DNA from: Verrucomicrobiota bacterium
GTDB lineage: Bacteria > Pseudomonadota > Gammaproteobacteria > Nevskiales > Nevskiaceae
Direction of reading: 5' to 3'
DNA length: 36,834 nt
Assembly (NCBI GenBank): GCA_903970595.1
Contig: CAJCJI010000526.1
Span: 1-36,834 of the forward strand
The notes below the pieces were generated by a model. It was not told the origin of the DNA. It made no database searches and saw only the letters and a program-made list of their open reading frames with translations. Position 1 is the first letter of the stretch, and each line of letters starts with the position of its first letter. Positions 233 to 22,584 of the stretch are shown piece after piece. Position numbers and translations under genes: made by a program.

Positions 233-390
233 GCGGGTCAGAATTGGAGCAAAGCCGTCACTGGCGAACTGCCGCTTTCAGGTAGCGACATTATTGTATT
301 TGCACCAACAATCGTGGAATCGCGCTGCCGTTCAGCCAGCTCTGGGGCCCGCTGATCCGGAACGCCAGCAGTCGCGCGCCGGAAATACCG
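233..390. other. Junction and leader between hemN fragment and GGDEF gene
   Basis: No gene is supported here. The stretch joins the broken end of the hemN fragment to the N-terminal region of the diguanylate cyclase gene. I see no inverted repeats, transposase fragment or att-like repeat marking the junction. Confidence 0.4.
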
Positions 391-6680: not shown

Positions 6681-6921
6681 AGCCGCCTCCCTCAGACAGA
6701 CGCAGGTATACGCCAGTGTCGTTGAATTGGCGAGCGAGGGTATTGATCTGCATCAATTCCGTGGCATCGGACCCCAGGACCTCAAACCGTTCAGCGTATT
6801 GGCGAATGTCAGCTTCAGGGAAGTCTACGTTCTGGACGATCGGCGCGAACCCTTTCCCCTCATAGTCACTGTGGCCAATGTGCGTGTTGTATACCTGTAG
6901 TCGAATAAGTACTTTCCGCAA
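6681..6921 (-). other. Protein-like open frame of about 80 codons before the kinase (unproven)
   Basis: One minus-strand frame reads through LQVYNTHIGHSDYEGKG, FPEADIRQYAERFEVLGSD and NTLARQFNDTGVYLRL, which looks more like protein than chance. It opens at a stop inside the inverted repeat. Its only early start is a TTG without a ribosome site, and it overlaps the FNR-type box. It is out of frame with the kinase and merges into the kinase's shadow frame without an early stop. It may be a gene relic or coincidence. I do not recognise a family. Confidence 0.25.
6743..6756 (-). promoter_or_regulatory. FNR/ANR/DNR-type operator upstream of five-PAS kinase
   Basis: TTGATCTGCATCAA is a perfect match to the FNR-family dyad TTGAT-N4-ATCAA. 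Its centre is 69 bases upstream of the kinase start, a normal distance for an activator site. The binding protein is not in the window, so FNR, ANR and DNR cannot be told apart. Confidence 0.65.
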
Positions 6922-6944
6922 AGGTGCTGCGGCAAGTACTTATT
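6904..6944. repeat. Near-perfect 17-bp inverted repeat upstream of the kinase operon
   Basis: The left arm AATAAGTACTTTCCGCA (6904-6920) and the right arm TGCGGCAAGTACTTATT (6928-6944) pair at 16 of 17 positions around a 7-base loop. Both arms contain the palindrome AGTACT. No T-run follows on either strand, so it is not a standard terminator. It could be an operator for a dimeric regulator, a protein-bound cruciform, or the relic of a small palindromic element. It lies about 230-265 bases upstream of the kinase start. Confidence 0.75.
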
Positions 6945-7204
6945 GCGCCTGGCCCACCTTTCCGTTGAAGCTATTCTTATTGTCGAGAGAACACCATAGT
7001 TCTGATTTGTGGGTGCGGTGCCCGGTCCGGACGCCGGATAAAGTCTGGTGGTTGGGTGAGTTCGGCAATCTAGGAATTAGCATGAGAAGCGCAAGCTAAA
7101 GGTCGAGCAGCACTCGCCGTCTTGCGGTGAGAGACCGAATCCGGTGGCTTCCGGATTTCCTCGTTGCATCGGCGCCGATTCACCAACCTACGCGGGAGAA
7201 TGAT

Positions 7205-7666
7205 TTGACCAAGGTATTGCCGAGCAGTTGGGCAGCCCAAACTCAGGGCCGGGCCGGCGCATTATGGTCATTGCTGGCAGACGCCAAATGCAACGCGTTA
7301 TCGCTCAGCATCCTGGAGGCAGCGGTTGGGATCGAGGGCATGCCGGATATACTTGCGGCATTTGAGCGCGACATGCCCCGCCTGACTGATGGCATGCGGC
7401 GAGCCGCCAGATGTCTTGATGCCAAAGACTTGCAGCACTTTGCGCATCTGATGAAGTACGGCGCATTGATGCTTGGAACAGCCCAACAGGCTGACCTGTA
7501 CGACGCCCTAGATTTGACGGCTGGCTGTGGCGGCATAACGGACGTATTGGACATCATACCGGAGGCGGCCGCACGCTATGAAGATATGGTACGCAATGCG
7601 ATCGCAATATGGCGGCGCAGCGCAAGTCCGAGAACGTTTCGCGCCACCCAGGTGATCGAGACGTAA
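7205..7666 (+). CDS. Hpt-like phosphotransfer protein
   Basis: Small helical protein of 153 residues. The segment from about residue 36 to 137 resembles a histidine phosphotransfer (Hpt) domain. It has a run ending in FERDMPRL, then FAHLMKYGALMLGT, which aligns with the family pattern AHxLKGxAxxxGA and places the phosphorylatable histidine at H81. Such proteins relay phosphate between a hybrid kinase and response regulators. No partner domain is fused here, and the island around it holds several receivers it could serve. I chose TTG 7205 because GGAG stands six bases before it. GTG 7127 would give 179 residues but has no ribosome site. The gene converges with the NarL-type regulator, with 16 bases between the stops. 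The match is by motif only, so the call is moderate. Confidence 0.6.
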   Translation: MTKVLPSSWAAQTQGRAGALWSLLADAKCNALSLSILEAAVGIEGMPDILAAFERDMPRLTDGMRRAARCLDAKDLQHFAHLMKYGALMLGTAQQADLYDALDLTAGCGGITDVLDIIPEAAARYEDMVRNAIAIWRRSASPRTFRATQVIET

Positions 7667-7682
7667 GAGAAAAAGCGCGTGC

Positions 7683-8387
7683 CTAGTCGGTAGTCAGGCC
7701 GTGTCGCATGGCGAATTGGATCAATTCGGCTGAGCTCGTCAGCCCCAGGCTTTCCATCGCCCTAGCCTTGTGACATTCGACGGTCTTGGAGGAAATCTTC
7801 AGCCTGGACCCAATTTCACGCGCGGTGTGACCGGCAGCCACCAACTGAAGTACTTGGCGTTGCCGTGCGGTCAAATTGAAAACGGCTCGTGTTGCGGCGC
7901 TTGCGGCGAAAGGCGTCCCACGCATTGGACCCTGTCCACCGACAAGCGGAGATACGTAGGTGCCGCCTCGCAGCACGGTTCTTATCGCGTGGCGCAACTC
8001 CACCGCCGGGGCCTGCTTGCCTAGGAAGCCCGAGGCCCCGGCCGCAAGCGATTCGGCAAGAAACATGCGGTCACTTTTGGCAGTAAGGCATATCGCATGG
8101 ACATTCGGAAACTCCTTCTTAATCAAGCGGATGGCGTCAATTCCGTTGAGTCCTGGCATTGAGACATCGGTGACCACGAAGTCGGGCTGAAGCATTCGTG
8201 TTGCGGCCAACAATCCTTCACCGTCGGTGACTACCGCGACGATCGCATATTCGGGTTCGAGAATCCGGCGCAGGCCGTCGGTCACGATGGCATGGTCGTC
8301 GGCCAGTACGCCGCGTGGCCGCGGCCCAGCACCAGTCGCGTAGTCTGGCGCGTCAGCTGCCGACCCTATCTGGACTAATGAAATCAT
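7683..8387 (-). CDS. NarL/FixJ-family response regulator
   Basis: DNA-binding response regulator of 234 residues. The receiver spans about residues 26-143, with acidic D30/D31, phosphoacceptor D74 (VVTD-VSMPG), T102 and K124. A LuxR-type helix-turn-helix spans about 170-228 (LTARQRQVLQLVAAGHTAREIG, then SSKTVECHKARAMESLG). It probably activates or represses transcription when phosphorylated. ATG 8387 was chosen because AGGA stands six bases upstream. The frame stays open to a TTG at 8522, but that extension looks non-coding. No cognate kinase is adjacent. A perfect palindrome about 80 bases upstream may be its operator. Target genes are unknown. Confidence 0.88.
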   Translation of the reverse strand: MISLVQIGSAADAPDYATGAGPRPRGVLADDHAIVTDGLRRILEPEYAIVAVVTDGEGLLAATRMLQPDFVVTDVSMPGLNGIDAIRLIKKEFPNVHAICLTAKSDRMFLAESLAAGASGFLGKQAPAVELRHAIRTVLRGGTYVSPLVGGQGPMRGTPFAASAATRAVFNLTARQRQVLQLVAAGHTAREIGSRLKISSKTVECHKARAMESLGLTSSAELIQFAMRHGLTTD

Positions 8388-8462
8388 GATCATTCCTGTT
8401 TTTGGAGTAATACCGCTTTTTTCCCCTAAGCCTGCACCGAATGCTGATCCATGGCTCGCATT

Positions 8463-8474
8463 GAGCATATGCTC
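8463..8474. promoter_or_regulatory. Perfect 12-bp palindrome upstream of the NarL-type regulator
   Basis: GAGCATATGCTC is fully self-complementary. It lies 76-87 bases before the regulator's start codon, where an operator would be expected. It could be a site for autoregulation. No second copy was noticed in the window. Confidence 0.3.
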
Positions 8475-9212
8475 GGTCAGGTTTGGCCGCCAGTCGGTGC
8501 TTGGACGTATGATTTGAGCCAAAGGCGCCGAATCACCAAAATTTGCTTTTTTTAGGCCTCACGGCTTACGAAACACCGCTCCAGGTGCCGCCGCCGCCTG
8601 ATTGCGCAGTTCCGGGCACCTCGGCCACGGCGAGCCATTGATGGCGCTGCCGCCTCCCCAGCGGCAATGCCGGCAATAGCCGGGTTCGCCCCGCAGGACG
8701 ACTTCGGCGGCGATCCGCTGAAAAATGTGAAGAGCAATACGTAGTTGCCGCCATCGGACTTCGGCAATTGCGGATGGTGCTCGAACAACCTAGCGGGCAA
8801 TCTGGAGGCAACTTGTAGCGAAGTTCAGTCATGCCATTAGACGCCGCGCCCAGCGCTGTCAAAACCGATTACCTTCCATGCCCGGTGCAGACCAGTCATG
8901 CGAGCCGCGGCAGCGGCGAACTGACTGTCCTATTTGGCAACGTGCTTGAGGCACGCATGGGGATGATGCCGGGTATCGGCAACTTTTCACGCCTGGCTAC
9001 CAAGATAGTATGCCGCGCGCTCATATCCTTTCAACAAAGAGGCAGGCTGGTACTCGGCGACCGTTCGGTCTGTTTCATTGACACGAATGCATGGGGCGAA
9101 GCGGCGGAGACCGTTCGCATAGTGCGTCGCCTCCCTACGCTGGCCAAGGCTGCCTGAGCGGCAACAAGGCCGGCGCGACCAAACGAGCAGACCTTGCCAG
9201 CGTTGGCCGACC
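8475..9212. other. About 740 bases without a supported gene
   Basis: Several open frames cross this stretch on both strands, but none has a convincing start, a recognisable domain or protein-like composition throughout. The minus-strand frame near 8720-8800 has a short protein-like run (KSDGGNYVLLFTFF), which could be a relic. Promoters for the flanking NarL-type (minus) and TetR (plus) genes must lie here; I cannot point to them. Confidence 0.4.
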
Positions 9213-9935
9213 ATGGTCTCGTCCCTGTCGTTGTCGTTAATGAAACAATCGAGCAAAACCGTGAAAGAAAATAAGCGCACAAGAATGCGCCAACACAGCA
9301 CGCGTCGCACGCAAGCCAAGCGCAGCCAGAGGATGCGCCAGCGCCTGATCGATGCGACGATCACCTGCCTGGCCGAGAAGGGCTATGCCAAGACCACTAT
9401 AGGCCGGATCGTCGCCCACGCTGGGGTTTCCCACGGCGCCACCGGACATCACTTCCATAGCAAGGCCGCCCTGATCACCGCCGCGACGGAAGAAATGACG
9501 CGGCGCATTCAGCGGATCCAGACGGACCTGATGAACGAACTCACACCCGGAGCAGGCTTTACCGCCTGGGCAGAGGGAGTCTGGTCGCGACTGCATGCGA
9601 CGCCCCTGATCCGCGCCGTATTGGAGCTGAGCATCTCGGCGCGACGCGAGCAGGACCTCACCAAGGCCCTTCAAGGCCTATTCAGTGAAGTGGTGGATGG
9701 ATTCCGTACGGAAGCCCTCCAGGAGGCACGGCAGTCGTTCGGTAACGCGGGCCTGGTCGCCGGGATTATCCCGCTGACCACATCTCTGATGCTGGGCATG
9801 GCGATTCAATATAACAGTCGCGGCGAGACTCCGGAACTTGCGGAACAGCTTGACCTCTGGGCACAGCTGGTAGAGCCCCACGTATCGCCCCAAAAATCTT
9901 TGGATTCACGCTCGGCAGGCTTTCAATCCGGCTGA
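9213..9935 (+). CDS. TetR-family transcriptional regulator
   Basis: One-component repressor of 240 residues from this start. The N-terminal helix-turn-helix has the classic TetR pattern: RQRLIDATI, then CLAEKGYAKTTIGRIVAHAGVSHGATGHHFHSK, at about residues 43-84. A helical ligand-binding domain follows to about residue 225. The N-terminus is rich in Lys and Arg. Starts at ATG 9213, 9240 and 9285 are all possible, and none has a strong ribosome site. ATG 9285 would put the start about 18 residues before the first helix, which is typical of the family. No enzyme or efflux gene lies beside it to suggest the ligand. It converges with the EAL gene, with 42 bases between stops. Confidence 0.85.
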   Translation: MVSSLSLSLMKQSSKTVKENKRTRMRQHSTRRTQAKRSQRMRQRLIDATITCLAEKGYAKTTIGRIVAHAGVSHGATGHHFHSKAALITAATEEMTRRIQRIQTDLMNELTPGAGFTAWAEGVWSRLHATPLIRAVLELSISARREQDLTKALQGLFSEVVDGFRTEALQEARQSFGNAGLVAGIIPLTTSLMLGMAIQYNSRGETPELAEQLDLWAQLVEPHVSPQKSLDSRSAGFQSG

Positions 9936-9977
9936 TGCCGCGAAGTGAGGCCCTGAGCTGGCCTTCCGTTGCGGAAC

Positions 9978-11249
9978 TTACTTTAGGTGATCCCGCGCCC
10001 ATAGGGTGAGTTGAGCAGCGGGAAACGGGCGTGCGATGTGATAGCCCTGTACCAGGTCACATCCCAGTTCGCGCAGTGCATCCCAGTGCTCGCGGGTTTC
10101 CACGCCTTCGGCCACAGTACGCAATCCCAATTCATGCCCCAGATCAAGGTTGGACTTGACGATGCTGTAGGATTCACGATCTTTGAACATGGCCATGACG
10201 AATGAGCAGTCGATCTTCAACTCGTTGAACGGCATACGCTTGAGTTGCTGTAGACTCGAATAACCACAGCCGAAGTCATCTATCGCCAGGCCAATGCCGC
10301 GCAGGCGCAGGCGCGTCAATACGTCGAGCGAGCGCACCGGGTCTTGCATGAATCCCCCTTCGGTTATTTCCAGCGTGATCTGCCGAGCCTCCAGTCCGTG
10401 CCGCTCAGCCAGCATAAGGATCGTGTCCGGCAAATTGAGACGACACATCGATGTAATCGGAACATTTACCGAGATGTTGGTCTTCAGTCCCGCACGATTC
10501 CAGTTGCCGCAGACCGCCACGGACCTTCTCAACATCAGTTCAGTCAACTCGTCGATCAGGCCGGTCTCTTCCGCCAAAGGCACGAAATTGGCAGGCGGAA
10601 CGACACCGCGGCTGGGGCTGTACCAGCGCGCCAACGCCTCCACGCCGTGCAGGGCGCCGTTATGGGCTTCGAGCTGCGGCTGCACGTAGACCTGAATCTC
10701 GTCGCCCTCTATTGCAGTGCGCAGTTCCGCCGCACTTGGCAGCGGTCCGGCCGGTTTCGCCGATGGCCGCGCCGCTTCTTCGAATGTCGACAGCATACGT
10801 TGCAGGTCGTCGGCGCGGATGGGCTTTTCCAGTGCCCCCAAGACGCGCAGCCCCCGGGTGCGCGCGAGGTCCTCGGCGGAAGCCAGCAATCTGCGCCCGG
10901 AAGCGCTGATCAACACCACGGCGGCCTCGGTCTGCCGCACGGAAATCAGGCGCAACAGTTGAATTCCATCCACCTTGGGGATGGAAAGGTCGGAAATGAT
11001 CAAGGTGTACATTTTGCTTTCGTTGAGCAGTCTTACTGCCTCGGGCCCGTTCGACGTGATGGTCAGGTCCGATATTCCAGCCGCGCGCAACTGGCTTTCC
11101 AAAGCACGACAGATGAATTCGTCGTCGTCGATCACCAGGACGCGATGCGCCGAAGCCTTTGACAGGGACTGCCGCTGAGCTTCGGCGGCAAGCGGACTCA
11201 TCACTGCAGGCCGCTTGGATTCACAGTGCTTCACCTTGGTATTGTTCAC
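9978..11249 (-). CDS. Response regulator c-di-GMP phosphodiesterase (REC-EAL)
   Basis: Predicted cytoplasmic phosphodiesterase that opens c-di-GMP to pGpG. The receiver is at about residues 36-155 with phosphoacceptor D87 (IISD-LSIP). The EAL domain covers about 172-420. Its catalytic residues look complete: E204-A-L, N262, E294/E297 (LEITE), DDFG (324-327), K345 and E381 (AEGVET). The start is GTG 11249, preceded by GAGGA seven bases upstream. The gene diverges from a GGDEF cyclase across a 236-base region containing a perfect CRP-type dyad, so synthesis and breakdown are probably regulated together. A decayed copy of this gene lies at 17.3-17.8 kb, sharing VLGALEKP and the QPxL...SSGR region. 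No adjacent kinase is present. Confidence 0.92.
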   Translation of the reverse strand: MNNTKVKHCESKRPAVMSPLAAEAQRQSLSKASAHRVLVIDDDEFICRALESQLRAAGISDLTITSNGPEAVRLLNESKMYTLIISDLSIPKVDGIQLLRLISVRQTEAAVVLISASGRRLLASAEDLARTRGLRVLGALEKPIRADDLQRMLSTFEEAARPSAKPAGPLPSAAELRTAIEGDEIQVYVQPQLEAHNGALHGVEALARWYSPSRGVVPPANFVPLAEETGLIDELTELMLRRSVAVCGNWNRAGLKTNISVNVPITSMCRLNLPDTILMLAERHGLEARQITLEITEGGFMQDPVRSLDVLTRLRLRGIGLAIDDFGCGYSSLQQLKRMPFNELKIDCSFVMAMFKDRESYSIVKSNLDLGHELGLRTVAEGVETREHWDALRELGCDLVQGYHIARPFPAAQLTLWARDHLK

Positions 11250-11313
11250 TATATGATCCTCGGCCCAAACACCTAAGTCGCCTATGATTAAGTATCACCT
11301 AACCAAACTGTGC

Positions 11314-11333
11314 AATGTGAATTGCGTCACATT
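11314..11333. promoter_or_regulatory. CRP/Clp/Vfr-type operator in the EAL-GGDEF divergent promoter
   Basis: AATGTGA (11314-11320), six-base spacer ATTGCG and TCACATT (11327-11333) form a perfect dyad matching TGTGA-N6-TCACA. It is centred about 74 bases before the EAL start and about 162 before the GGDEF start. On the EAL side, CTTAAT at 11287-11292 lies near where a -10 would fall for class II activation. In Xanthomonads the CRP homologue Clp is inhibited by c-di-GMP, so feedback is plausible. Confidence 0.7.
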
Positions 11334-11423
11334 TCGGTCGAAGTCCTTCAGCGTCGCACGGCGTCTAGTGCATTTGCGTCCAACCCAGCAGCCTCAGTGA
11401 ACCACATTGTGCGTATCGAGGCA

Positions 11424-11437
11424 TTGATCCAGATCAT
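11424..11437 (+). promoter_or_regulatory. FNR/ANR/DNR-type operator upstream of second GGDEF gene
   Basis: TTGATCCAGATCAT matches TTGAT-N4-ATCAA at nine of ten defined positions. Its centre is about 55 bases upstream of the cyclase ATG at 11486. The identical 14-mer recurs at 17208-17221. Confidence 0.55.
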
Positions 11438-11485
11438 TTGAGAGTTGGCGAGGCAAAGGCTGCATTTTGCGCGCCCGCAATTTGA

Positions 11486-12916
11486 ATGCTCAAGAAATAT
11501 TGCGCCGTGCCGCTATTAAGAAAAAGCGAACTCCCGAACTGCGGCATCGAGCCTGCATTGAAGATGATCTCAGCGATGACACACGAGGCGCAGCCTTACG
11601 GCAAGTCTCCCACGAGACCCGCATTGCGGCCGCGCTGCAGGGAGAATCTGTTGTTGCGCCGGGTGGTGCTGCGTTTGTGTGCGCTGGCGGCGGGGCGGGA
11701 CGAGCAAATCGATGCCCAGCTAGTCCAGCTCGGCGAGAGCATGAACCGGCCGGGCGATAACGAAGCGCTGGAGCATTTGCTGATCGGCCTGAGTGAAGTT
11801 GCCGGCCCGCTCGATGAAGCACCGCCGATCGAAGCAGCGATGGACTGTGCGGACGGCCCGGGTACGGAGACGACATGTTGGTTCGCCCGTCAAACCGTAT
11901 TGCAACTGCTGGACAAGCTGGTCCTGAGTCCACGCTTGCAGTCTTCTTTGAATGCCCTGAGTGCCGGGCTGTCGGGCTGCAACAGCGAGAGTGAAGTCGT
12001 GCACGCTGCGGAGCAGCTTGCGTTGCTGATCAACCAACAAGCCGTGGAACTGCAAAACGAGCAGGCGGCATTGGCGGAGACTCTGAAAAACGTCAGCGCG
12101 GGACTGGACCGAACCGCGCATCATCTGGTCGACGAAGCCCTATTGCAGGAAACCGCGTTGAAGGACAGCGCGGAGTTTAACCGGCACCTGCAGGGCGAAG
12201 TTGACGCTATCGACAGCGGAGTGCGCAAGGCAGCCAACCTGAGCGAGGCGCAGGGTCAAGTACTGGCGCGAATTCGGATGATCAATATCGTTGTCGATGC
12301 ATTCCGCCAGCGCCAAATGACCCGGCTTGAGGAGACCAAGGAGCGTACGAAGTCGATGAAGTTGCGGGTCGAAGAGCTTGAACGCGAAACCGAAGCCTTG
12401 CAGGAGTCGGTACGTGCGGAACAACGCAAGGCCAGCACTGACGCGCTGACCGGCATTCCAAACCGCCTTGCTTTTCAGCAGCGCATGACCCGCGAATTTC
12501 TGCACTGGAAGGCCTCCGGTGTGGAATTGGGTATTGCCATCTGGGACGTCGATCACTTCAAGGCCGTCAATGACCGTTACGGACACGCCGCGGGCGACAA
12601 GGCACTGCGCGTGATTGCCCGGCACCTGATGCGCAATTGTCGTAGCGAGGACTTCTTCGCGCGCGTGGGCGGAGAGGAGTTCGTGATGATCGTGCGCGGT
12701 CTTGGCGTCGAGCAACTTATGGAAGCGGCGGAGAGGGTGCGCATTTCCTTAGGTCGGCTGGGTCTGCACTGCGAGGGTAGTGCAGTGCCGCTTTCGGTCT
12801 CCTGTGGTCTGAGCCTGTGCCATCCCGGCGATACCGAGGAAACCTTGTTGAAACGTGCCGACGCAGCCTTATATCAGGCCAAGCGCGCCGGCAGAAACCG
12901 CTGCTTCCTGGGCTAG
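11486..12916 (+). CDS. Diguanylate cyclase with N-terminal helical region and coiled coil
   Basis: Predicted cytoplasmic c-di-GMP synthase of 476 residues. Residues 1-170 hold no domain I recognise and look helical. Residues 180-315 are rich in Glu, Gln, Leu and Arg and should form long coiled coils, a common dimerising input to GGDEF domains. The catalytic domain is at about 315-475 with DALTGIPNR, DVDHFKAVND and an intact GGEEF (395-399). An RxxD inhibitory site (R386-SED) sits five residues upstream. ATG 11486 lacks a clear ribosome site; ATG 11564 or 11576 would remove 26-30 residues of unconvincing sequence. It diverges from the REC-EAL phosphodiesterase and has CRP-type and FNR-type sites upstream. 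No transmembrane segment is seen. Confidence 0.9.
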   Translation: MLKKYCAVPLLRKSELPNCGIEPALKMISAMTHEAQPYGKSPTRPALRPRCRENLLLRRVVLRLCALAAGRDEQIDAQLVQLGESMNRPGDNEALEHLLIGLSEVAGPLDEAPPIEAAMDCADGPGTETTCWFARQTVLQLLDKLVLSPRLQSSLNALSAGLSGCNSESEVVHAAEQLALLINQQAVELQNEQAALAETLKNVSAGLDRTAHHLVDEALLQETALKDSAEFNRHLQGEVDAIDSGVRKAANLSEAQGQVLARIRMINIVVDAFRQRQMTRLEETKERTKSMKLRVEELERETEALQESVRAEQRKASTDALTGIPNRLAFQQRMTREFLHWKASGVELGIAIWDVDHFKAVNDRYGHAAGDKALRVIARHLMRNCRSEDFFARVGGEEFVMIVRGLGVEQLMEAAERVRISLGRLGLHCEGSAVPLSVSCGLSLCHPGDTEETLLKRADAALYQAKRAGRNRCFLG

Positions 12917-13675
12917 CAGAATCCGTCTGCCTCAGGCTCCGGAGGTCGGCCACCATTTGTCTACGGGGTCGGTGAAGGATTCGCAACAACTCCGTCCTGA
13001 ATTGGCCGGGCCGGCTGCCCGGATGCCGGTGAAGCAGAAGCCTTAGTGTCCGGAATGCGAAGTCAAGCGACCCATCTCGGCTTTGCATCTTGCACATGCA
13101 GCGATCAATCGACTGCAGTGTAAATAGGGCCCTTATACAGCTGAGTGCTGCAATGGCGCCACCTCCGCGTCGACTTCACGTGGGACCCCCTAATCGGTAC
13201 GAGGTGGTGCGCGACCCAAAACGTCAACCCGGGTCATGGACGGCATGTGGCGCTGCATGGAACCCAGTGTGCGCCAGCGTTTTGCGCATCCACTGGTCAG
13301 TGTCGAGTGTGTCAACAATCCGTGATCGAAACACCCAAAAAAATGACGGAATACCGACAGTGGTCGCTCATTGCAACGAGTGAAGTGTGGGGGGCGTGTC
13401 CACCAAATATGTGCTTGCGCCGAAAAGGGACTTCGTTGTTACCGTTCATCCAGAATAGCATCGCGGTACTGAACGCATTATTGCTATGTTCTGATCGCGG
13501 TAAAGATCAAGCGGCAAACGTAATCGGAATGTGTCGGTGACGATTGTTGCGGCTGATAAGTTCCAACTCAGCACAATATAAAAAAGGACAGGTCCAACGT
13601 TCCGGCTCATTCAGTGAGCATGCGTTGTATCGGCATCCGGGGAAGTAGTTTTCGTTCACATACTGGAGTCAGAAC
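12917..13675 (+). other. Long intergenic region and leader of the Ig-repeat protein
   Basis: This stretch of 759 bases has no supported gene; plus-strand frames near 13.1-13.5 kb have unprotein-like composition and no ribosome sites. Base composition looks less GC-rich than the neighbours. A short hairpin (CCGGGC/GCCCGG, 13006-13022) follows the cyclase without a T-run. Near the right end, GCTCA/TGAGC (13605-13619) nests inside CAACG/CGTTG pairing, so the leader of the next gene may be structured. I do not recognise a c-di-GMP riboswitch. Confidence 0.4.
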
Positions 13676-16177
13676 ATGCATCGCCCGATACTGCTGGACC
13701 TGTTTCGATACCTGGGGGCATCTGCCGTTGTCGCCTGGGGCAGCTTCAGTTTCGCCATGCCACCCATGACCACGATGCCGCCACCGACGTTGAGCTTCGC
13801 CGTCATGCCCGCAAGCATTCCAGTCGACAGCAGTGCCACGCTCAACTGGTCGACCACTAATGCCACTTCTTGTGCCCTGAGCGGCGCGCTCAGCGGCACC
13901 ACCGGTCCGCAGAGCAACAGCAGCAAGCCCCTGAATGTCGAACCCACTGTTGCCGGCAGCTACACCTATACGCTCACCTGCAACGGCGCTGGCGGTTCGA
14001 TCGCCGAATCGGCGACCTTGCAGGTCGTGGCGCCGCCTGTGCCGACCGTAAGCTTTACCATCAATCCTGCCAGCGTTGTGCTCTACAACAGCGCAACGCT
14101 CACCTGGTCGTCGACCAATGCTACGAATTGTGGGATCAGCGGCGCCCTGACCAAGAGCAGCGTCGGTCCGCAGAGCAGCACCAGCAGTCCGGTGCAGGTG
14201 GAACCGACCGCCGCCGGCAGCTATACCTATACCCTGACCTGCTCCGGCGCGGGTGGTTCGACCGCCAAATCGGCGACCTTGCAAGTGGTATTGCCGCCGG
14301 CGCCGACGGTAAGCGTGGCCGTCAGCCCCTCCAGCGTTCAGCTCGACACCAGTGCTACGCTCACCTGGTCGTCGACCAATGCCACGAATTGTGCAATCAG
14401 CGGCGCCCTGACCAAGAGCAGCGTCGGTCCGCAGAGCAGCACCAGCAGCCCGGTGCAGGTGGAACCGACCGCCGTTGGCAGCTACACCTATACCCTGACC
14501 TGCACCGGCCTGGGCGGTTCGACCGCCAAATCGGCGACCTTGCAGGTCGTGCAGTTGCCGGTGCCAACGGTGAGCTTTGCCTTCAGTCCCGCCACGATTC
14601 AGAACGGCAGCAGTTCAACCCTGATCTGGTCGTCGACCAATGCCACGTCCTGCAGCCTCAGCGGCAACGTGAGCGGCACCGTCGGCCCGCAAAGCAGCAG
14701 CACCAATCCGCTGAAGGTCACACCCGGCGGCGTCGGCAGCTACACCGAAAGCCTCGCCTGCACCGGCACCGGCGGCACCGCCGCCAAGTCGGCCACCCTG
14801 ACGGTCACGCTGCCGCCGCCGACATTGAGCCTTGCGGTCAATCCTTCCACGATCAAACTCGGCAACAGCGCTGTGGTCACCTGGACATCGACCAACGCCA
14901 GCGCCTGCACCCAGAGCGGGTCCTGGAGCGGCGCCACGGGTACGGCGAGCGCAAGCAACGCGCCGGCAATCGTCACGCCTGGCGCTGCCGGGACGTACAC
15001 CTACGATCTGACCTGCACCGGCTCCGGCGGCTCGGTCAAGCAGGCGGGTACCTTGTACGTCACCGCGACCCAGAACATGCCGTTCCTGGATACACAGATC
15101 GAAGCGGCCCAGCAGACGGCGGGCAACACCTCGCCCACATCCTCCTGCGGCGTCATCAGTCAGAACAAGTCGGGCAGCGAGGACGGCTTCTATTGGGAGA
15201 TCGGCAACGAGAACGGAATCATCGCGGATACCTCGAAGAACCTGAGCGCCTCGGGCAGCGTGCAGCCGGCCGGCACCTCGGGCACCAACTACACCCGGAC
15301 CTCGCAATTGCAGATTGATTCGGCCAGCAAATGGCTGTATGGCAGCTACGTGGCGGAGACCAAGGCGCAGTTCACGGACAATACCTGGCAGTTCCCTGCT
15401 GCTTACCTGCCGTTCCTGCACTTCACCAGCGGCTACGCCAACATGACGGACAACTGCATGTCCAACCAGAGCGTGCAGCAATGTCTGGCCGATTCCAATG
15501 GCGCAGCGTCCCCGCTTGCCAATGGCACCAGGACCGCGGCGGACGCCGGCCTGTTCGACTACAACTCGGGTCACCTCGAGGTCTTTGAAGGGGGCGGCGA
15601 CCCCAGCATTGCCGGCGTCATGAATGGCGCCAACAACAATGACGCCGCCCTGGCCAGCGAAATCACCACGGCCTTGAGCAACAAGGACGTCATCGTCAAC
15701 CTGAGCTTCGTCGCTCCCGATCCGGCGGGCGGCGTACAGACCACGCCGGGCGACTATGCGGCATTTCTCCAGGGCCTCTTGCGTCCCAGCGATCCGCTGG
15801 TCATGCGCTCGCTGTTGGCCCCGGGGAGCACCGATCCCTACGCGGTTTGCACCAATCCGTTCGATTCGACTTGCGTCAACGGCAGCGGCGCGCCTGCCGC
15901 CGTTTATTCGCCGATCCCGGGCGATGTGAGCTGGCAGTATTCGATCACGCACTGGATCGAAGACGACCCCACCACCGGAGACGGCTCCTACAGCAGTCCG
16001 GGCAAATCCGGCTTCTATCCATGGATCGATGCGACCAAGACCTACTATGGCATCGTGGCCAGGTTCGACACGAGTGGTGCAAGCAGCACCAACCCCAGCA
16101 CCTCGCCGTTCTACCTGTCCGCCGTTTGCGGAGCCGCCATCCGCACCGCCTTCATGACCGGAACCGCGCAGCCCTGA
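13676..16177 (+). CDS. Exported five-Ig-repeat protein with C-terminal beta-lactamase-fold serine hydrolase
   Basis: An 833-residue secreted or surface protein. A short hydrophobic N-terminus (about 5-27) serves as signal peptide. Five Ig-like repeats follow at about 36-118, 122-205, 209-292, 296-378 and 381-463. Each has TLxWSSTNATxC and GSYTYTLTCxGxGGS and one Cys pair (C66/C102, C152/C189, C239/C276, C326/C362, C411/C447), likely disulfides. The C-terminal 365 residues carry SASK (S549, K552), YAN (587-589) and KSG (777-779), in the order and spacing of the three motifs of serine beta-lactamases, DD-peptidases and related esterases. FYPWIDATKTYYGIVAR near the end is typical of that group. 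The natural substrate is unknown. GGAG lies seven bases before the ATG. A strong terminator follows. The fold call is from motifs only. Confidence 0.8.
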   Translation: MHRPILLDLFRYLGASAVVAWGSFSFAMPPMTTMPPPTLSFAVMPASIPVDSSATLNWSTTNATSCALSGALSGTTGPQSNSSKPLNVEPTVAGSYTYTLTCNGAGGSIAESATLQVVAPPVPTVSFTINPASVVLYNSATLTWSSTNATNCGISGALTKSSVGPQSSTSSPVQVEPTAAGSYTYTLTCSGAGGSTAKSATLQVVLPPAPTVSVAVSPSSVQLDTSATLTWSSTNATNCAISGALTKSSVGPQSSTSSPVQVEPTAVGSYTYTLTCTGLGGSTAKSATLQVVQLPVPTVSFAFSPATIQNGSSSTLIWSSTNATSCSLSGNVSGTVGPQSSSTNPLKVTPGGVGSYTESLACTGTGGTAAKSATLTVTLPPPTLSLAVNPSTIKLGNSAVVTWTSTNASACTQSGSWSGATGTASASNAPAIVTPGAAGTYTYDLTCTGSGGSVKQAGTLYVTATQNMPFLDTQIEAAQQTAGNTSPTSSCGVISQNKSGSEDGFYWEIGNENGIIADTSKNLSASGSVQPAGTSGTNYTRTSQLQIDSASKWLYGSYVAETKAQFTDNTWQFPAAYLPFLHFTSGYANMTDNCMSNQSVQQCLADSNGAASPLANGTRTAADAGLFDYNSGHLEVFEGGGDPSIAGVMNGANNNDAALASEITTALSNKDVIVNLSFVAPDPAGGVQTTPGDYAAFLQGLLRPSDPLVMRSLLAPGSTDPYAVCTNPFDSTCVNGSGAPAAVYSPIPGDVSWQYSITHWIEDDPTTGDGSYSSPGKSGFYPWIDATKTYYGIVARFDTSGASSTNPSTSPFYLSAVCGAAIRTAFMTGTAQP
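13780..15063 (+). repeat. Five tandem Ig-like coding repeats
   Basis: Units recur every 85-87 codons. Units 2 and 3 are nearly identical in DNA: the block beginning GGCGCCCTGACCAAGAGCAG occurs at 14141 and again at 14402, an offset of exactly 261 bases, and the match runs on through the next 60 or so bases with single changes. Units 1, 4 and 5 are more diverged. Confidence 0.85.
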
Positions 16178-16251
16178 ACGGGAGTTGACATGGCTATGGA
16201 GCGCGCCATCGATATTTTGTGAGTGTATGGTCGATATCGGGCTTTACCCGC

Positions 16252-16281
16252 GCCAGCCGCCTTCGGGTGGCTGGCCCTTTT
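16252..16281 (+). terminator. Rho-independent terminator after the Ig-repeat hydrolase
   Basis: GCCAGCCGCC (16252-16261) pairs with GGTGGCTGGC (16266-16275) in a ten-base-pair stem capped by a TTCG tetraloop, followed by CCTTTT. It lies 75 bases after the stop codon and is a textbook intrinsic terminator. Confidence 0.85.
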
Positions 16282-16559
16282 GTAACGAAGCTAAAAGCGT
16301 TTGACACGGCCTGGGTATGCTTGCCGATGAGCCCGGATTCTGCCCGGCGGCAGCGCCCCATGGCGATCTATCGCAAGGGATTCACGCGCGCCAACGTCGA
16401 ATCGTGGCGCGCATCGGACATATCGCTCGATGTCGTATGGAACGCGATCATGCCTGCTGCCCTTCCAGGAGCCTGAGTGCTGCTGCGGCCTGGCAGTCGT
16501 GACACTACAATTGTAAGGCGAACCCAGATTGCGGCACGAGTTCCAGACGGCGTCCGCAC
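16282..16559. other. Gap between terminator and PAS-only gene
   Basis: I see no supported gene here. It separates two converging transcripts. Just inside the PAS gene's 3' end the palindrome CCTAA-ATA-TTAGG (16559-16571) overlaps its stop codon. Confidence 0.35.
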
Positions 16560-17144
16560 CTAAATATTAGGAGGCGCCTGAAGCGGATCCGCGTCGACCC
16601 CGCCGGTAAGCAGGCGCAGAGCCTTGTTCAGGGAGTCAGTCAGCAACATGGAGCGGGACTCATCGCTTAGGCTCCCGAGGTGTGCGGTTACATCGCGAAT
16701 GGCCGCGATGCAATGCCCGGCGCCCTCATCTTTGCTCCGACATCGGCTGAGCAGCCAAACATTCCGAGCCCTGCCATCCTGGGCGGCACAGCGCAGCTTG
16801 CATACCGAGTCGCCGGTTCCCTGCTCAATTGCCGTTGCCAACTTTCGCGCAGCCTGCCGCTTGTCGCTGGGATAGATGAAGTCCGCCAGTTTTCTGCCGA
16901 TCAGATATTTTGGCCGATAGCCCAAGAACTGCGTCGCAGAGGTAGTGAGTTCGAGCAGCGTGCCGTCGTAGGCAAGTATCGCAACGGCATCCGCAAGCGT
17001 GTCGGTTACCCGGCGAGCATTGGTTGGATCGAATGGTGCCGAAAACCTGCGCTGCTCCGGCTGGTAAGTGGTGACAGGCGGGGCAGGATTGATCGCCTTG
17101 CCGGTAGTAGAGGTGTAACAGTGAGGTGAAAGCATGGCGAACAT
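16560..17144 (-). CDS. Single-PAS-domain protein
   Basis: A 194-residue protein with one PAS domain at about residues 42-157 (VTDTLADAVAILAYDGTLLELTTSATQFLGY, then GRKLADFIYPSDK and IAAIRDVTAH). No kinase, GGDEF, EAL or DNA-binding domain follows, so it lacks an output of its own and may act by binding a partner kinase or cyclase. The first 40 residues are low in recognisable features. ATG 17144 is used; ATG 17135 is an alternative, and neither has a clear ribosome site. An FNR-type box is centred 70 bases upstream. CATGAT at 17180-17185 stands where a -10 would be if that box were at -41.5, so oxygen- or NO-responsive expression is likely. Confidence 0.75.
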   Translation of the reverse strand: MFAMLSPHCYTSTTGKAINPAPPVTTYQPEQRRFSAPFDPTNARRVTDTLADAVAILAYDGTLLELTTSATQFLGYRPKYLIGRKLADFIYPSDKRQAARKLATAIEQGTGDSVCKLRCAAQDGRARNVWLLSRCRSKDEGAGHCIAAIRDVTAHLGSLSDESRSMLLTDSLNKALRLLTGGVDADPLQAPPNI

Positions 17145-17207
17145 TGCATTAGAGCTGGCAGATGGCTTCTGCAGTTGTAATCATGCCCGTGGGGCCGCCT
17201 AGCGGCA

Positions 17208-17221
17208 TTGATCCAGATCAT
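17208..17221 (-). promoter_or_regulatory. FNR/ANR/DNR-type operator upstream of PAS-only gene
   Basis: TTGATCCAGATCAT, nine of ten consensus positions, is identical to the box at 11424-11437. It lies between the PAS gene (minus) and the EAL remnant (plus). The matching box upstream of the intact GGDEF gene suggests this promoter region may have been duplicated together with c-di-GMP genes. Confidence 0.55.
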
Positions 17222-17299
17222 GACGCATTGTTGCGTGCTCGCAGCACAAAGACTCTAGTGAATTCGATTTTGCGGAGTACTTCGCCATTGAGAGCCGCC

Positions 17300-17789
17300 C
17301 TGAACGTGACCGAGTACCTGGCCGCCAGCCCCGCAAGCTGCTATCCACGCTGGCATGCCTGGCTAAGTAACAGGGGTATGAACGTGCTCGGTGCACTGGA
17401 AAAGCCGGCGACTTCTGAATCGCTGCGCGGCCTGTTGCCGTGCAATACCTCTTCCGACCAGATCAGCATCCTGCGTTCAGCTCCGTTCACCGCGGACGGA
17501 CTGGGTGATGCCAAAACACTGGTCAAAATCAATATTCACGTTCAACCTAAGTTAAATGCGCTCAGCGGGAAGGTGGGCGTCGTCGTCGTATTGGCCCGAA
17601 GGTTCAGTTCAGGACGCAGTATGGTACAGCTCAGCGTATTCTACGTGGCGGAAGGCTGGAGACCGAGAAGCTATGGAACTTGATGGTGAGCATGGCTGCA
17701 AAATCGTGCAGGGGAATTTGATCGCAAACCCAAAGCCGACCGGCCGGCTTCCGGCCTGGTGGCCGCAGTACGCCGCTTGTTTCAACTGA
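17300..17789 (+). pseudogene. Decayed REC-EAL response regulator (frameshifted, internally deleted)
   Basis: One frame gives RGMNVLGALEKPATSESLRGLL and then HVQPKLNALSGKVGVVVVLARRFSSGR. These line up with RGLRVLGALEKPIRADDLQRML and YVQPQLEAHNGALHGVEALARWYSPSR of the intact REC-EAL gene at 9978-11249. The catalytic EAL has become VVL. Some 170 codons are then missing and the frame resumes at YVAEG, equal to the TVAEG of the parent. A shift follows, and another frame continues as EHGCKIVQGNLIANP to 17789, matching LGCDLVQGYHIARP. The receiver's phosphorylation region is absent. It is therefore a dead paralogue, not a new gene. Its end overlaps the hybrid kinase's 3' end by eight bases. Confidence 0.75.
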
Positions 17790-20685
17790 CGTTGACCTGC
17801 AAATATTCCCTTACACGGTTGAACTCACTGCCGGCCTGCTGCGCTAGATTACGGCAAGCGGTGTCCCGCTTTTGCGCCGCCGCGATTTCCAGTTCGGAGA
17901 GAATCCGCGCCAGCGGTTTGGCGCCGAGAGTACGCGCAGAACCAAGCAGGCGGTGCGCCAGGGCTTCCACCGCAGGATAGTCATTCTGCCTGCCGAGTTT
18001 ATCCAGTTCTTCGACCAGAGGCGCGTTGATGCGCAGAAAATCCCGTGCCAGGTCTGCGACGATGGCTGCATCCCCGCCAAGCAACTCGGCCAGCGCGGCG
18101 CGGTCCAGCGGCGATTCGCTGGTGCCGGGTTCGGCTTTGGCGGGAAGATCGCCGGGCGACGCCGCAGTATCGGACCATGGTGCCAAGGCACGATGAAGGT
18201 CTTCAAGGCTGGAAGGCTTGGACAACTGTCCGTCCATTCCTGCGTCTGAGCAGCGTTCTTGCTCACCGGAGGCCACCTGGGCGGTCATTGCCAGAATCGG
18301 CAGGCGGCCGCTCCTTTCTCCAGCAGCTTCGCGCCGGCGGATCTCCCGGGCCACGCCGTAGCCGTCCAAACCGGGCATACGCAGATCGGTGAGCAAGAGA
18401 TCGTAGTCCCTGCCGTCAAGCCGGCGCAGTGCCTCTTCACCGTTGGCAGCCAGTTCGGCGTCATGGCCGAGCAGAGACAATTGGTGCTGAATCACATGCT
18501 GGTTGGTGGGATGATCGTCTACCGCGAGTATGCGCAGGCGCCGTGCAGGCTTCGCTGCCGTGCTCGCCTTAGTGGCACGGACCGGAGCCAATCCCGCCGC
18601 AAGGGCCAGCGCCCGCAGCAGCGCACTGCGATGCTGCGGATGCGGCAGATGCGTTTGTACCGAGCCGCCATCCACAGAAATGCCGTCGCTGGCGTTGTCG
18701 CGCACGCGCAGCACCGCATTGTCGGCAATGCGTGCACCCGCGGCACGCAGATAGTCGACAATCCAGCTGCGTTCCGTGGCGTCGGCAATGTCAATGCCGA
18801 TGACTACGCCGTCGAGCCGCTGCTGCCGAACCGGGGAAGGATCGACGGCCAGGGGAAAGTCCAGCTGGAACCAGAACTCGGTGCCCTTCCCGGGAGTGCT
18901 TTCGAGGCCGATGCGGCCGCCCATGCGCTGCACGAGGCCTTGGCAAATGGACAATCCCAGCCCGGAACCGCCGTAGGTTGCGGCAGTGGCGGCGCTGGCT
19001 TGGCGGAAGGGTTGGAATAGCTTTGCCTGCACCAGGGGTGCTATGCCAATGCCGGTATCCAACACCGAGAAGCGAACGCGCACGCGCTCCGCGGTTGTTT
19101 CTGCTATCCGTGCGCAGACCGCGACGCGCCCCGCTGCGGTGAATTTCACCGCGTTGTTGCACAAGTTAGAGAGGATTTGCCGCAAGCGCATGGCGTCACC
19201 CAGCACGAGCGGCGGCAATGCCGGATCGATGTAGTTGAGCAGGCGGATATTCTTACCGCGCGCGCGGGAGGCAAAGGTTTCGGCGCAGCCTTCGACGACG
19301 TGCACGATGCTGAACGGCTCGCTGTTCAGTTCGATCCGGCCGGCTTCGATGCGAGCCAGGTCCAGAGTGTCGTCGACGATGCGCAGCAAGGACTGCGCGG
19401 ACTCGTGCACCATGCGCAACGATTCGCTTTGGCCCTGGTCCAGGCTCGAATGCTGCAGCAGTTCGAGCATGCCCAGGATGCCGTGCAGGGGCGTGCGTAC
19501 TTCGTGGCTCATCTCCGCCAGGAAGCGAGACTTGGCTTCGCTGGCGGCTTCGGCGGCATCAAGCCGCTCCAATTTATAGGAAAGCCAGTGCGTAGTCTGG
19601 GTCAGCACATCCAGTTCGTCGGCGAACGCCGAGCGCTTGCTGCGTCGTGGCAGCAATTCGCGCGCCTGGGCAAATTTCTGATCGGCCAGCAGGGGGAGGG
19701 CGCTGGAAATTCGGGTCAGGCGACGTGACAAGGGCGTTAAGAACAGCCACAGGGCTCCAGCCGATAAGGTCAGTCCGAGCAGCGAAGAAGCCACGCCGGC
19801 ACGCACGCCGTCGCGGATGCGGGCGAGCGAGGCGGTTTCATCCAGGATGAACAGAACCTGGATGTCGCTTGCGCCGTCCAGGGGCGTGGCCAGAGTCAGA
19901 GATGCAAAGCGACCATCACTGGCAGCATAGGGTTGATTATCGGGCGCTTTGCGTAGAGCCGGGGCTACGGCACGAAGCCAGGGCAGCAGGCGCGGCGCAT
20001 CGGTGACCGCGAATAGCCTACGACCGCCAATGATTCGGCTGGCCGGGCCCGGTGGGTGTACTTGCGCCGAATTGGCGAGCAGGGCCACATCCGCTCCGGA
20101 CTGTCGAGAAAATTCGCGCAGCGTCTCTGCCACCGGCTGGCCGAGACCGACCATGAGCTCTATCCCGTTGCGGTCGAATGCAGGCTCATAGCTGTACTGA
20201 ACGCATTCTTCGCTACAATGGATGACCGCGACTGGCCGGTGCGTATTACGAGCCGAATCGATCAGTTTCTGCTCGATCTGGGACGGCAGGCGGACGGCTG
20301 TCTCCGTCGCTATCCCGCCGACCAGCCAGCCTTGCGCATCGAAGATCCTCAGGTCCGACAGGCTGGCGAGGACTTCCGGCGCCAATTGCGAGGTGTCGAA
20401 TGGATGCTGACGGGCATCCGCCAGCGATGCCCCGGAAGCGATCTGCGCGCCAACGGTTCCAAGGGCATGGGCGGAATTGTCCAGCAATGCTTCGAGCTGC
20501 TGCCTGAAGGCGCCGAGGTGCTCGCGCTCCTGTTGGCGATACTGGTTCATCTCCTGCCTGTAAACCAGCAGACCGAACGCCGTATGCACGATGCCCAACA
20601 GCAGAAAAATGGCGCCGAAGGCCTTCCAGCGCAGGCTCAAGCGCATGCGCGGTGCGGCATCGTTCAACATCGTTGGCGCTGCCAC
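17782..20685 (-). CDS. Membrane hybrid histidine kinase (periplasmic sensor-HK-REC-Hpt)
   Basis: A 967-residue BarA/BvgS-type phosphorelay kinase. Membrane segments are at about 21-42 and 296-317. They enclose a periplasmic sensor of about 250 residues containing HCSEEC (C157, C161) and QYSYEP, resembling double-Cache (dCache_3-like) domains. A HAMP-like linker follows. The kinase core has MSHEVRTP (H394), the N box around 507-511, DTGIG (543-547) and GSGLGL (573-578). A degenerate receiver-like segment at about 620-700 lacks an obvious phosphoacceptor. A true receiver follows (D767 in LLTD-LRMPG), then Hpt with H911 (ALAHRLLGSA). The GTG start is three bases after the porin stop, so it is translated from the same operon as the PstS-like protein and porin, which may bind or admit its ligand. 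The final phosphate acceptor is not adjacent. Confidence 0.92.
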   Translation of the reverse strand: MAAPTMLNDAAPRMRLSLRWKAFGAIFLLLGIVHTAFGLLVYRQEMNQYRQQEREHLGAFRQQLEALLDNSAHALGTVGAQIASGASLADARQHPFDTSQLAPEVLASLSDLRIFDAQGWLVGGIATETAVRLPSQIEQKLIDSARNTHRPVAVIHCSEECVQYSYEPAFDRNGIELMVGLGQPVAETLREFSRQSGADVALLANSAQVHPPGPASRIIGGRRLFAVTDAPRLLPWLRAVAPALRKAPDNQPYAASDGRFASLTLATPLDGASDIQVLFILDETASLARIRDGVRAGVASSLLGLTLSAGALWLFLTPLSRRLTRISSALPLLADQKFAQARELLPRRSKRSAFADELDVLTQTTHWLSYKLERLDAAEAASEAKSRFLAEMSHEVRTPLHGILGMLELLQHSSLDQGQSESLRMVHESAQSLLRIVDDTLDLARIEAGRIELNSEPFSIVHVVEGCAETFASRARGKNIRLLNYIDPALPPLVLGDAMRLRQILSNLCNNAVKFTAAGRVAVCARIAETTAERVRVRFSVLDTGIGIAPLVQAKLFQPFRQASAATAATYGGSGLGLSICQGLVQRMGGRIGLESTPGKGTEFWFQLDFPLAVDPSPVRQQRLDGVVIGIDIADATERSWIVDYLRAAGARIADNAVLRVRDNASDGISVDGGSVQTHLPHPQHRSALLRALALAAGLAPVRATKASTAAKPARRLRILAVDDHPTNQHVIQHQLSLLGHDAELAANGEEALRRLDGRDYDLLLTDLRMPGLDGYGVAREIRRREAAGERSGRLPILAMTAQVASGEQERCSDAGMDGQLSKPSSLEDLHRALAPWSDTAASPGDLPAKAEPGTSESPLDRAALAELLGGDAAIVADLARDFLRINAPLVEELDKLGRQNDYPAVEALAHRLLGSARTLGAKPLARILSELEIAAAQKRDTACRNLAQQAGSEFNRVREYLQVNVS

Positions 20686-20688
20686 GGA

Positions 20689-21885
20689 TTAGAACCGGTA
20701 GGCGCCCATCAACTGGAAAAAATTCCAGTGATCGTGGAGGGTATTGCCGAGATTGTCCGAAGGCGGTACGTCCGCAGTTCCCTGGACGATGTGGAACTCG
20801 GCCCACATTCCCCAATGTTCTGTGGGACGCCAGTTTAACCCCAGCATTTCATCGTGGCTGAACTGTGAATAACGGTCGCCTCCGGTCTGGGACGCAAATT
20901 CGCGGCCGTTACGATCGTGACGGTTGTCGAACGTCGCGCTGTAGCGCCCCATGACGCTCCAGTGCGGAACGATCTGGTAGTCGCCTTGCAGGTAAAAGCC
21001 GTCGCCCGAATCGCTGCTCGTTCCGGTGAGGTCGCCGAAGGTATTGGAGAAGTTGATCTGATATTCGCCGGTCAAGGCAAAGCTGCGTGCGTTGTACCGC
21101 GCGGATACCACCCACAGATTGTCGTCGAGTCCGCCGTTCAGAGGTACGCCCGGATCGGGTTGGATCAGCAAACCTGCGTGCAAGTGGCTCAACGCCAGTT
21201 TGACGGTACCGCCATTCCACTCGTCCTGCAACCGCTCGGCGTCGAAATTCCGCACTTGTAACCGCAGCGGCAGCATTTCACCCCCCAGGAGTTGCTGCTG
21301 GTCTTTTATGCCAAGTTGCGAGTTGAAATCAAGGTTCGACTCGAAACTGATGTAGTGGTCACCAATCTGCACACCGCCATAAAGTTGCCCGCCGTCGCCG
21401 GAGAAGAAAACACTGCGCAGCCCGTCGCTTTCGAAATAGACCGAGTTTGGCAGATCAATACCGGGCCGGGTGAACACAACGTCCCGGGTATCATTGTAAA
21501 AGCCGTAGGGATTCTTCACCCGCCCCAGCCGTATGCCCGCATTGAACCATTGATTTGAAAACAAGCGATAGTCGATCAGGGCATAGTCCAGGCGCAGTCC
21601 GTCGGTGTCGGAGTTGCCGGCGCGACGCAGTACGGTCTGCGCCGACATCAGCAAATTAGGCATGAGCGACAAGGTGCCGCTCAAGCCCAACTCGTAATAG
21701 TCCGTGCTTCCGTGATCGGCGCTAGTGCCGTCGACGTTGTTGCCTTCGCTCAGCGTGTAGCCTTGCGCGGCAAAGCCATGATATTGGTAATCGAGTGCCG
21801 ACGCCTGCGCGGATGCCAGGGCCAGCAGAAACACCAGCGGCGAAAGCGGCCTCCGGCTTCGATGAAAATAAGAGTGCCTGCTCAT
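20689..21885 (-). CDS. Porin-like outer-membrane beta-barrel protein
   Basis: A 398-residue exported protein. A signal peptide of about 30 residues (ending AQASA, then LDYQYHG) leads into repeated amphipathic strands with many aromatic residues. The chain ends in Phe (MGAYRF), the usual C-terminal signature for BAM-dependent barrels. It resembles general porin-like proteins, but no specific substrate can be read. The ATG overlaps the stop region of the PstS-like gene by four bases (21882-21885) and has GGAAAG upstream. Its stop is three bases before the hybrid kinase start, so all three genes are translationally linked. This suggests that the barrel supplies the periplasmic sensor with its ligand; that is inference. 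Confidence 0.82.
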   Translation of the reverse strand: MSRHSYFHRSRRPLSPLVFLLALASAQASALDYQYHGFAAQGYTLSEGNNVDGTSADHGSTDYYELGLSGTLSLMPNLLMSAQTVLRRAGNSDTDGLRLDYALIDYRLFSNQWFNAGIRLGRVKNPYGFYNDTRDVVFTRPGIDLPNSVYFESDGLRSVFFSGDGGQLYGGVQIGDHYISFESNLDFNSQLGIKDQQQLLGGEMLPLRLQVRNFDAERLQDEWNGGTVKLALSHLHAGLLIQPDPGVPLNGGLDDNLWVVSARYNARSFALTGEYQINFSNTFGDLTGTSSDSGDGFYLQGDYQIVPHWSVMGRYSATFDNRHDRNGREFASQTGGDRYSQFSHDEMLGLNWRPTEHWGMWAEFHIVQGTADVPPSDNLGNTLHDHWNFFQLMGAYRF

Positions 21886-22379
21886 GGTGTCTTTCCTTCC
21901 GAAAGCGGGGCCCGGGCTCTTCCCAGGTCGACTGGTGTACGATCGGATTCCCGGCGAGTGAACGAATCCGTGGTGTAGCCGATGGCTCCAGGAGTTGCCA
22001 TAACCTGCCGGCGCATCTCATCTTCGCTGCGAAGCAATGTCGGCGCGAAGCCGGTGCCGGTGAATTCCAGGCGGTCCCAGATGTTGCGTAGCACGTACGG
22101 GTACATGCCGAGCTGTTCGCGGCAGAATTGGTCGTGTACCGGGTTGTCGTCGGCCAATACGAAAATCCTAACTGCGGTGCCGTCCGGCCAGGCGCGCAGC
22201 CGCATGGTAAACAGGGCCCGGAGAAAGTCTCGGCCGATGGGCACCTCGGCATGCTCGGGGCTTACGATAATCTCGGTGGCTGCCCGAGCCGTAAAGGAAC
22301 TCGTCGCCAGGATCGACAACGCCAGCCAAAACCAGAGCTTGGCGGCGCAGCTGACAAGTCTGGTTGGCCCGGTGCCCAT
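21882..22379 (-). CDS. Small PstS-like periplasmic substrate-binding protein
   Basis: A 165-residue exported protein. The signal peptide covers about residues 1-34 (FWLALSILATSSFTARA). The mature part has IIVSPEHAEVPIGRDFLRALFTMR, then GTAVRIFVLADDNPVHDQFCRE and PGAIGYTTDSF. These follow the pattern of short phosphate ABC transporter binding-protein-like (PBP superfamily) proteins that occur without transporter genes. It is about half the length of true PstS and lacks pst neighbours, so transport is unlikely. It is the first gene of the porin/hybrid-kinase operon and could present a ligand to the kinase's periplasmic domain. ATG 22379 has a weak ribosome site. A perfect FNR-type box is centred 198 bases upstream. 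Confidence 0.75.
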   Translation of the reverse strand: MGTGPTRLVSCAAKLWFWLALSILATSSFTARAATEIIVSPEHAEVPIGRDFLRALFTMRLRAWPDGTAVRIFVLADDNPVHDQFCREQLGMYPYVLRNIWDRLEFTGTGFAPTLLRSEDEMRRQVMATPGAIGYTTDSFTRRESDRTPVDLGRARAPLSEGKTP

Positions 22380-22570
22380 GGATTCAGGGCCGGGCCGCGA
22401 CGAATGATCTGTCCGACTGCTCCGAGGCTATCAAGCCCGCAGCCCGACAAATGTCGTATTCCCATTGCCCAACAAAGGCGATGCGCTTATGTTTGAAGCA
22501 ATCGCGACAACCCACGTTTTATTCCCCATTCGCAATAACGTGATTCTGGGGGATTCGGCGCTGGCTTGCA

Positions 22571-22584
22571 TTGATCTGGATCAA
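22571..22584 (-). promoter_or_regulatory. FNR/ANR/DNR-type operator upstream of PstS-like/porin/kinase operon
   Basis: TTGATCTGGATCAA is a perfect dyad matching TTGAT-N4-ATCAA. CAGAAT at 22544-22549 on the minus strand lies where a -10 would be if the box acted from about -41, giving a leader of about 158 bases. On the plus side there is no gene to control, since flgN ends nearby on the minus strand. Confidence 0.6.

Follow-up and report, generated by a model that had tools for sequence, protein, structure and literature searches.

The stretch of DNA analysed here (36,834 nt, referred to as the window) corresponds to contig C526 in a Solimonas-like MAG of 5.15 Mb (534 contigs, 87% complete). 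Besides a flagellar half, it carries genes for a histidine kinase with five PAS domains, response regulators with HD-GYP-type or EAL domains, a GGDEF protein, a stand-alone PAS protein and a hybrid histidine kinase. Scanning the window revealed TTGAT-N4-ATCAA dyads in four promoter regions, two of them perfect (6743 and 22571) and two with one mismatch (11424 and 17208; TTGATCCAGATCAT), the latter pair sharing 18 identical bases (GGCATTGATCCAGATCAT). These are the four dyads listed in the initial annotation, which was also right in seeing none in the flagellar half, where no site at ≤1 mismatch was found. The stated spacing of 55–70 bases between dyad centre and start codon agrees with the measured values of 55.5 (ATG 11486), 69.5 (TTG 6680) and 70.5 (ATG 17144) for three of the boxes; the centre of the fourth, at 22571, lies 198 bp before ATG 22379. 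A fifth match with one mismatch, at 5086, is located inside the coding sequence of the five-PAS kinase and was rejected as a promoter site. Shuffled versions of the window contain 0.58 ± 0.70 matches at ≤1 mismatch, compared to 5 observed, and the genome-wide density predicts 0.09 perfect sites and 0.95 at ≤1 mismatch, where 2 and 5 are present. The four boxes are beyond chance expectation, with a window-level excess that is optimistic because the window was picked for the presence of boxes; the −10 geometry described below played no part in that choice.

In the class II arrangement of FNR-dependent promoters the dyad is centred near −41.5, and the −10 element is hence located ca. 32 bp from the dyad centre. 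The perfect FNR/ANR-type box at 6743..6756 (minus strand; TTGATGCAGATCAA) has the core signature defined below and lies upstream of the five-PAS kinase gene (3954..6680, minus strand; five Pfam PAS domains and HATPase_c). A possible but weak −10 hexamer, GACACT (3/6; 6715..6720, minus strand), lies with its midpoint 32 bp from that of the dyad, and GACACT also follows a box in relative G010 (L191). The TTG start codon of the kinase is preceded by a good Shine-Dalgarno sequence, GGGAGG, at 6686–6691, and would fit a leader of ~28 nt. The following response regulator gene (2347..3951, minus strand), encoding DUF3369 and HD-GYP-type HD_5 domains (PF13487, PF11849), is likely co-transcribed with the kinase gene. 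The best annotated relatives of the kinase are from Solimonas; at three such loci (L028, L029, L032) no box occurs near the kinase match, the nearest being a one-mismatch site ~1.2 kb off (L028, L029). A kinase relative in G008 was discarded as a promoter orthologue, since its N-terminal part differs and the promoter is not orthologous.

The one-mismatch box at 17208..17221 (minus strand) is located upstream of the gene of the stand-alone PAS protein (16560..17144, minus strand; PF00989, 1.4e-7), whose best match found is a paralogue (35% identity) encoded within the cco cluster of contig C423. A −10-like hexamer, CATGAT (4/6; 17180..17185, minus strand), occupies the class II position, with 32 bp between dyad centre and hexamer centre. 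The same holds for CAGAAT (4/6; 22543..22548, minus strand) downstream of the perfect box at 22571..22584 (minus strand; TTGATCCAGATCAA), which precedes a probable operon of three adjoining or overlapping reading frames (17782..22379, minus strand). This operon consists of a 165-aa ORF, a gene for a possible outer-membrane β-barrel protein and a gene for a dCache_3 hybrid histidine kinase with receiver and Hpt domains. The 165-aa ORF (21882–22379, minus strand) had been named PstS-like, which is not supported by any Pfam or NCBIfam match, relaxed thresholds included.

The remaining one-mismatch box (11424..11437; direction uncertain) lies between the divergent genes of a response regulator with an EAL domain (9978..11249, minus strand; PF00563, 1.5e-66, and PF00072) and a GGDEF protein (11486..12916, plus strand; PF00990, 3.1e-40). 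The −10 position is occupied by CTGCAT (2/6) towards the GGDEF gene and by TTCACT (3/6) towards the EAL gene. The same divergent pair is present in a relative (G008:C267; 69% and 51% identity) with no box in the interval, and none was found in the region before the GGDEF relative of G011. FNR control at this site, as judged from its sequence, is uncertain.

Box signature and promoter geometry

The whole genome contains 13 perfect dyads and 133 sites at ≤1 mismatch. Perfect half-sites separated by one to nine bases occur 4, 2, 1, 13, 0, 4, 9, 4 and 3 times, respectively, such that the N4 spacing, with 13 sites versus a mean of 3.4 for the other spacings, is about fourfold enriched. This spacing series was used in place of a reversed-pattern background control, which alters dinucleotides and was rejected. 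Eleven of the 13 perfect sites share, on one strand, the core TTGATC-Y-R-N-ATCAA (TTGAT-C[CT][AG]N-ATCAA). According to site lists tallied by hand, this signature is also found in 14/16, 14/16 and 11/17 sites of related genomes with two or three FNR genes (G003, G008 and G011), and from 0/3 to 4/9 in those with a single FNR gene. FNR-less relatives show it in 0/3 (G001), 0/1 (G002), 0/4 (G005), 0/2 (G006), 0/3 (G009), 1/12 (G012) and 1/2 (G021) sites; FNR-less G007, with 3/7, makes the signature an inexact marker of FNR. With its high fraction, as in the multi-FNR genomes, the window genome therefore resembles one with a working regulon. G012 was dismissed as a case of boxes without FNR, its sites looking like chance. 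A TGC extension of the half-site, present on only 6/48 sides, was dropped.

Promoter geometry was assessed at boxes outside the window by counting hexamers which match TATAAT in at least four positions and have their midpoint at exactly 32 bp from that of the dyad. In this test, which rests on few boxes, such hexamers were found on 28% of the sides of signature boxes in the genome itself (18 sides) and on 23% in the genus (30 sides). The corresponding values are ~2% for other offsets and 1/30 for non-signature boxes, with a background of ~1.2% per offset. Core signature and a −10 hexamer at exactly this distance thus provide a usable test that parts likely real sites from chance dyads. Applied in the direction of the genes, the geometry is clear for the boxes at 17208 and 22571, weak for that at 6743 and poor for that at 11424. 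The assignment to the FNR/ANR type in the initial annotation is supported by spacing enrichment, core signature and, for part of the boxes, class II geometry.

These data also bear on the possibility that the four window boxes are chance dyads and the real regulon lies elsewhere in the genome. Many of the 133 genome-wide sites are probably due to chance, and the box at 11424 combines poor geometry with missing conservation. However, two perfect sites face the small fraction of one expected, and two of the four boxes have a hexamer with at least four matches at the exact offset, against the low background. We regard this explanation as highly improbable.

Probable whereabouts of the regulator gene

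Searches of the 87%-complete assembly with E. coli FNR, a genus FNR and PF13545 retrieved no intact FNR, ANR or DNR gene. The genus FNR query detected a deletion relic of 108 codons in the window (8831..9157, plus strand), in which residues 1–49 are joined in frame to about 188–247. The effector barrel is gone while the frame is still open; one N-terminal Cys remains, Tyr and Ser/His replace two cluster cysteines, and the Glu of the recognition helix is changed to Lys. Identity amounts to ~50%, and a comparison of codon positions gave no clear sign either way on selection. Judged from its sequence, this ORF is a dead deletion relic and not an FNR. Four cysteines (C-x2-C-x4-C plus a central Cys) are present in the genus FNR proteins; with these FNR-like cysteines there is no indication of a DNR-type NO sensor, which had been considered next to an oxygen sensor.

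In five relatives (G004, G010, G022, G023 and G008) the FNR gene is convergent to hemN. The window starts with a partial second hemN copy (1..253, minus strand; model positions 308–390) that runs off the contig edge; over 239 nt it matches the terminal part of contig C423 (L219) with 97% identity. The “hemN remnant” of the initial annotation is this second, partial copy. Both contigs break at hemN position 390/454 and share 119 identical terminal bases, and the bin lacks positions 391–454, which adjoin FNR in the five relatives. Two partial copies interrupted at an identical codon by the ends of their contigs represent a repeat-induced assembly break. Because C423 ends inside hemN, where the relatives carry FNR, the gene may be missing from the assembly without having been lost. 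We infer that an intact regulator gene exists and most likely lies in the unassembled part that adjoins hemN at the terminus of C423. Four-Cys FNR-type regulators beside hemN are a common feature of the genus relatives (G003, G004, G008, G010, G011 and others), from which this assembly differs by having no intact copy and only the relic in the window. A genome lacking any FNR homologue had been named as an argument against FNR control; the lack applies to the assembly but not to the genome, the expected locus of which falls in the gap.

Alternatively, the lineage might have lost its FNR, of which the relic would be the remainder and the boxes unread leftovers. The relic without barrel, two cluster cysteines and recognition-helix Glu is in line with such a loss, as are the failure to find another FNR in the assembly and the existence of eight other genus genomes without FNR. 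Yet the relic is old in view of its divergence, and the boxes have nevertheless remained perfect and retain both signature core and −10 geometry, whereas few signature boxes survive in most genus members that have long been without FNR; moreover, the expected FNR locus lies in the assembly gap. Such an abandoned regulon appears unlikely to us.

At least eight paralogues of the Crp/Fnr family, with LGVRRE(G/S) in the recognition helix, are encoded in the genome (L014, L015, L017–L023). FixK proteins bind the same sequence as the FNR box, and FixL and FixJ genes are present on C423. It is therefore conceivable that the boxes are recognised by a Crp/Fnr protein without Fe-S cluster, either FixK-like or one of these GVRREG-type paralogues, and that oxygen is sensed upstream by FixLJ. 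However, E-x-x-S/C-R is missing from the recognition helix of the paralogues, a FixK-type protein did not turn up in the assembly, and the corresponding cluster of the relatives carries a four-Cys FNR, which makes this scenario distinctly unlikely. Scarcely any probability is given to the idea that the lineage lost FNR and kept the boxes, now being read by another Crp/Fnr paralogue, or that the 108-residue relic acts as a truncated regulator.

Predicted low-oxygen regulon and its counterparts

We thus return to the reading which we consider probable, namely that an FNR/ANR-class factor uses the four boxes as operators for class II activation in an ordinary low-oxygen regulon, with the regulator gene in the assembly gap. 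When oxygen is scarce, the dyad, with its centre near −41.5, would be occupied by a [4Fe-4S] FNR dimer, which would switch on σ70-dependent transcription of the PAS-only gene and the hybrid-kinase operon, and probably of the five-PAS-kinase/HD-GYP operon. From the nucleotide sequence we infer this binding, the oxygen response and the direction of regulation. The −10 geometry, clear at 17208 and 22571 and weak at 6743, therefore makes FNR/ANR-type low-oxygen activation likely for two or three of the four promoters, the third being that at 6743.

The window sites probably form part of a regulon that is recognisable elsewhere in the genome by ccoN/usp, FixLJ, hemN and a PHA cluster. Contig C55 carries five perfect boxes together with genes for PHA synthase, thiolase, phosphate acetyl/butyryltransferase (pta) and a sigma-54 regulator, and C423 carries one perfect box between usp and ccoN. 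The latter box is shared with a relative (G008:C205), the block being collinear from fixJ to hemN. Conservation of the boxes in related genomes, which the initial annotation had proposed to check, is found at ccoN/usp outside the window, but not at 11424, the only window promoter with a usable orthologue among the regions compared, where the box is absent in G008. G008 has further boxes of this kind in front of a FixL-like gene and in the interval between an apparent nirK gene, named on the basis of its sequence, and a gene for a stand-alone PAS protein; the proximity of PAS-type sensors to such boxes thus recurs in the genus. At the second of these sites (L178; G008:C222, 5484–7720), two perfect FNR-type boxes lie between the apparent nirK and the PAS gene, which encodes 159 aa.

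Control of much of the c-di-GMP network, as originally proposed, is not supported. Only the boxes at 6743 (kinase/HD-GYP operon) and 11424 (GGDEF/EAL response regulator pair) touch c-di-GMP genes, the latter with poor geometry and no counterpart in G008. Perfect boxes show no sign of enrichment at such genes; among the GGDEF matches listed for the genome, no contig except that of the window has one. The regulator called NarL-type, cited for the same theme, is a LuxR-type response regulator with no nitrate-specific feature.

FNR control of c-di-GMP genes is not a new idea and has a precedent in Rhodobacter. In R. capsulatus, direct targets of FnrL include c-di-GMP signalling and flagellar proteins, and FnrL boxes precede ccoN, uspA and the hybrid sensor kinase gene dorS (TTGATCGGGATCAA) (PMC4634722, PMC7232146). 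The present genome has boxes of the same form before ccoN, usp and a hybrid sensor kinase, and both usp and ccoN are FnrL targets there (PMC4634722). R. capsulatus belongs, however, to another class of Proteobacteria, its other target genes differ, and its regulon was established by ChIP-seq and RNA-seq, compared to sequence only in our case. The Anr regulon of Pseudomonas, in which strain-specific targets are common, likewise includes boxes of the same kind before a sensor kinase gene, narX, and hemN beside the regulator gene (PMC6588701). It differs in that the window targets have no counterpart in that paper, a text search of which revealed no c-di-GMP gene (PMC6588701). If correct, our assignment extends the low-oxygen regulon predicted for this little-studied, Solimonas-like genus to PAS-sensor, hybrid-kinase and HD-GYP genes. 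Further perfect dyads of the genome are located near genes of pro-kumamolisin activation-domain proteins, repeated in similar copies on two contigs (L220 and L223; C530 and C449).
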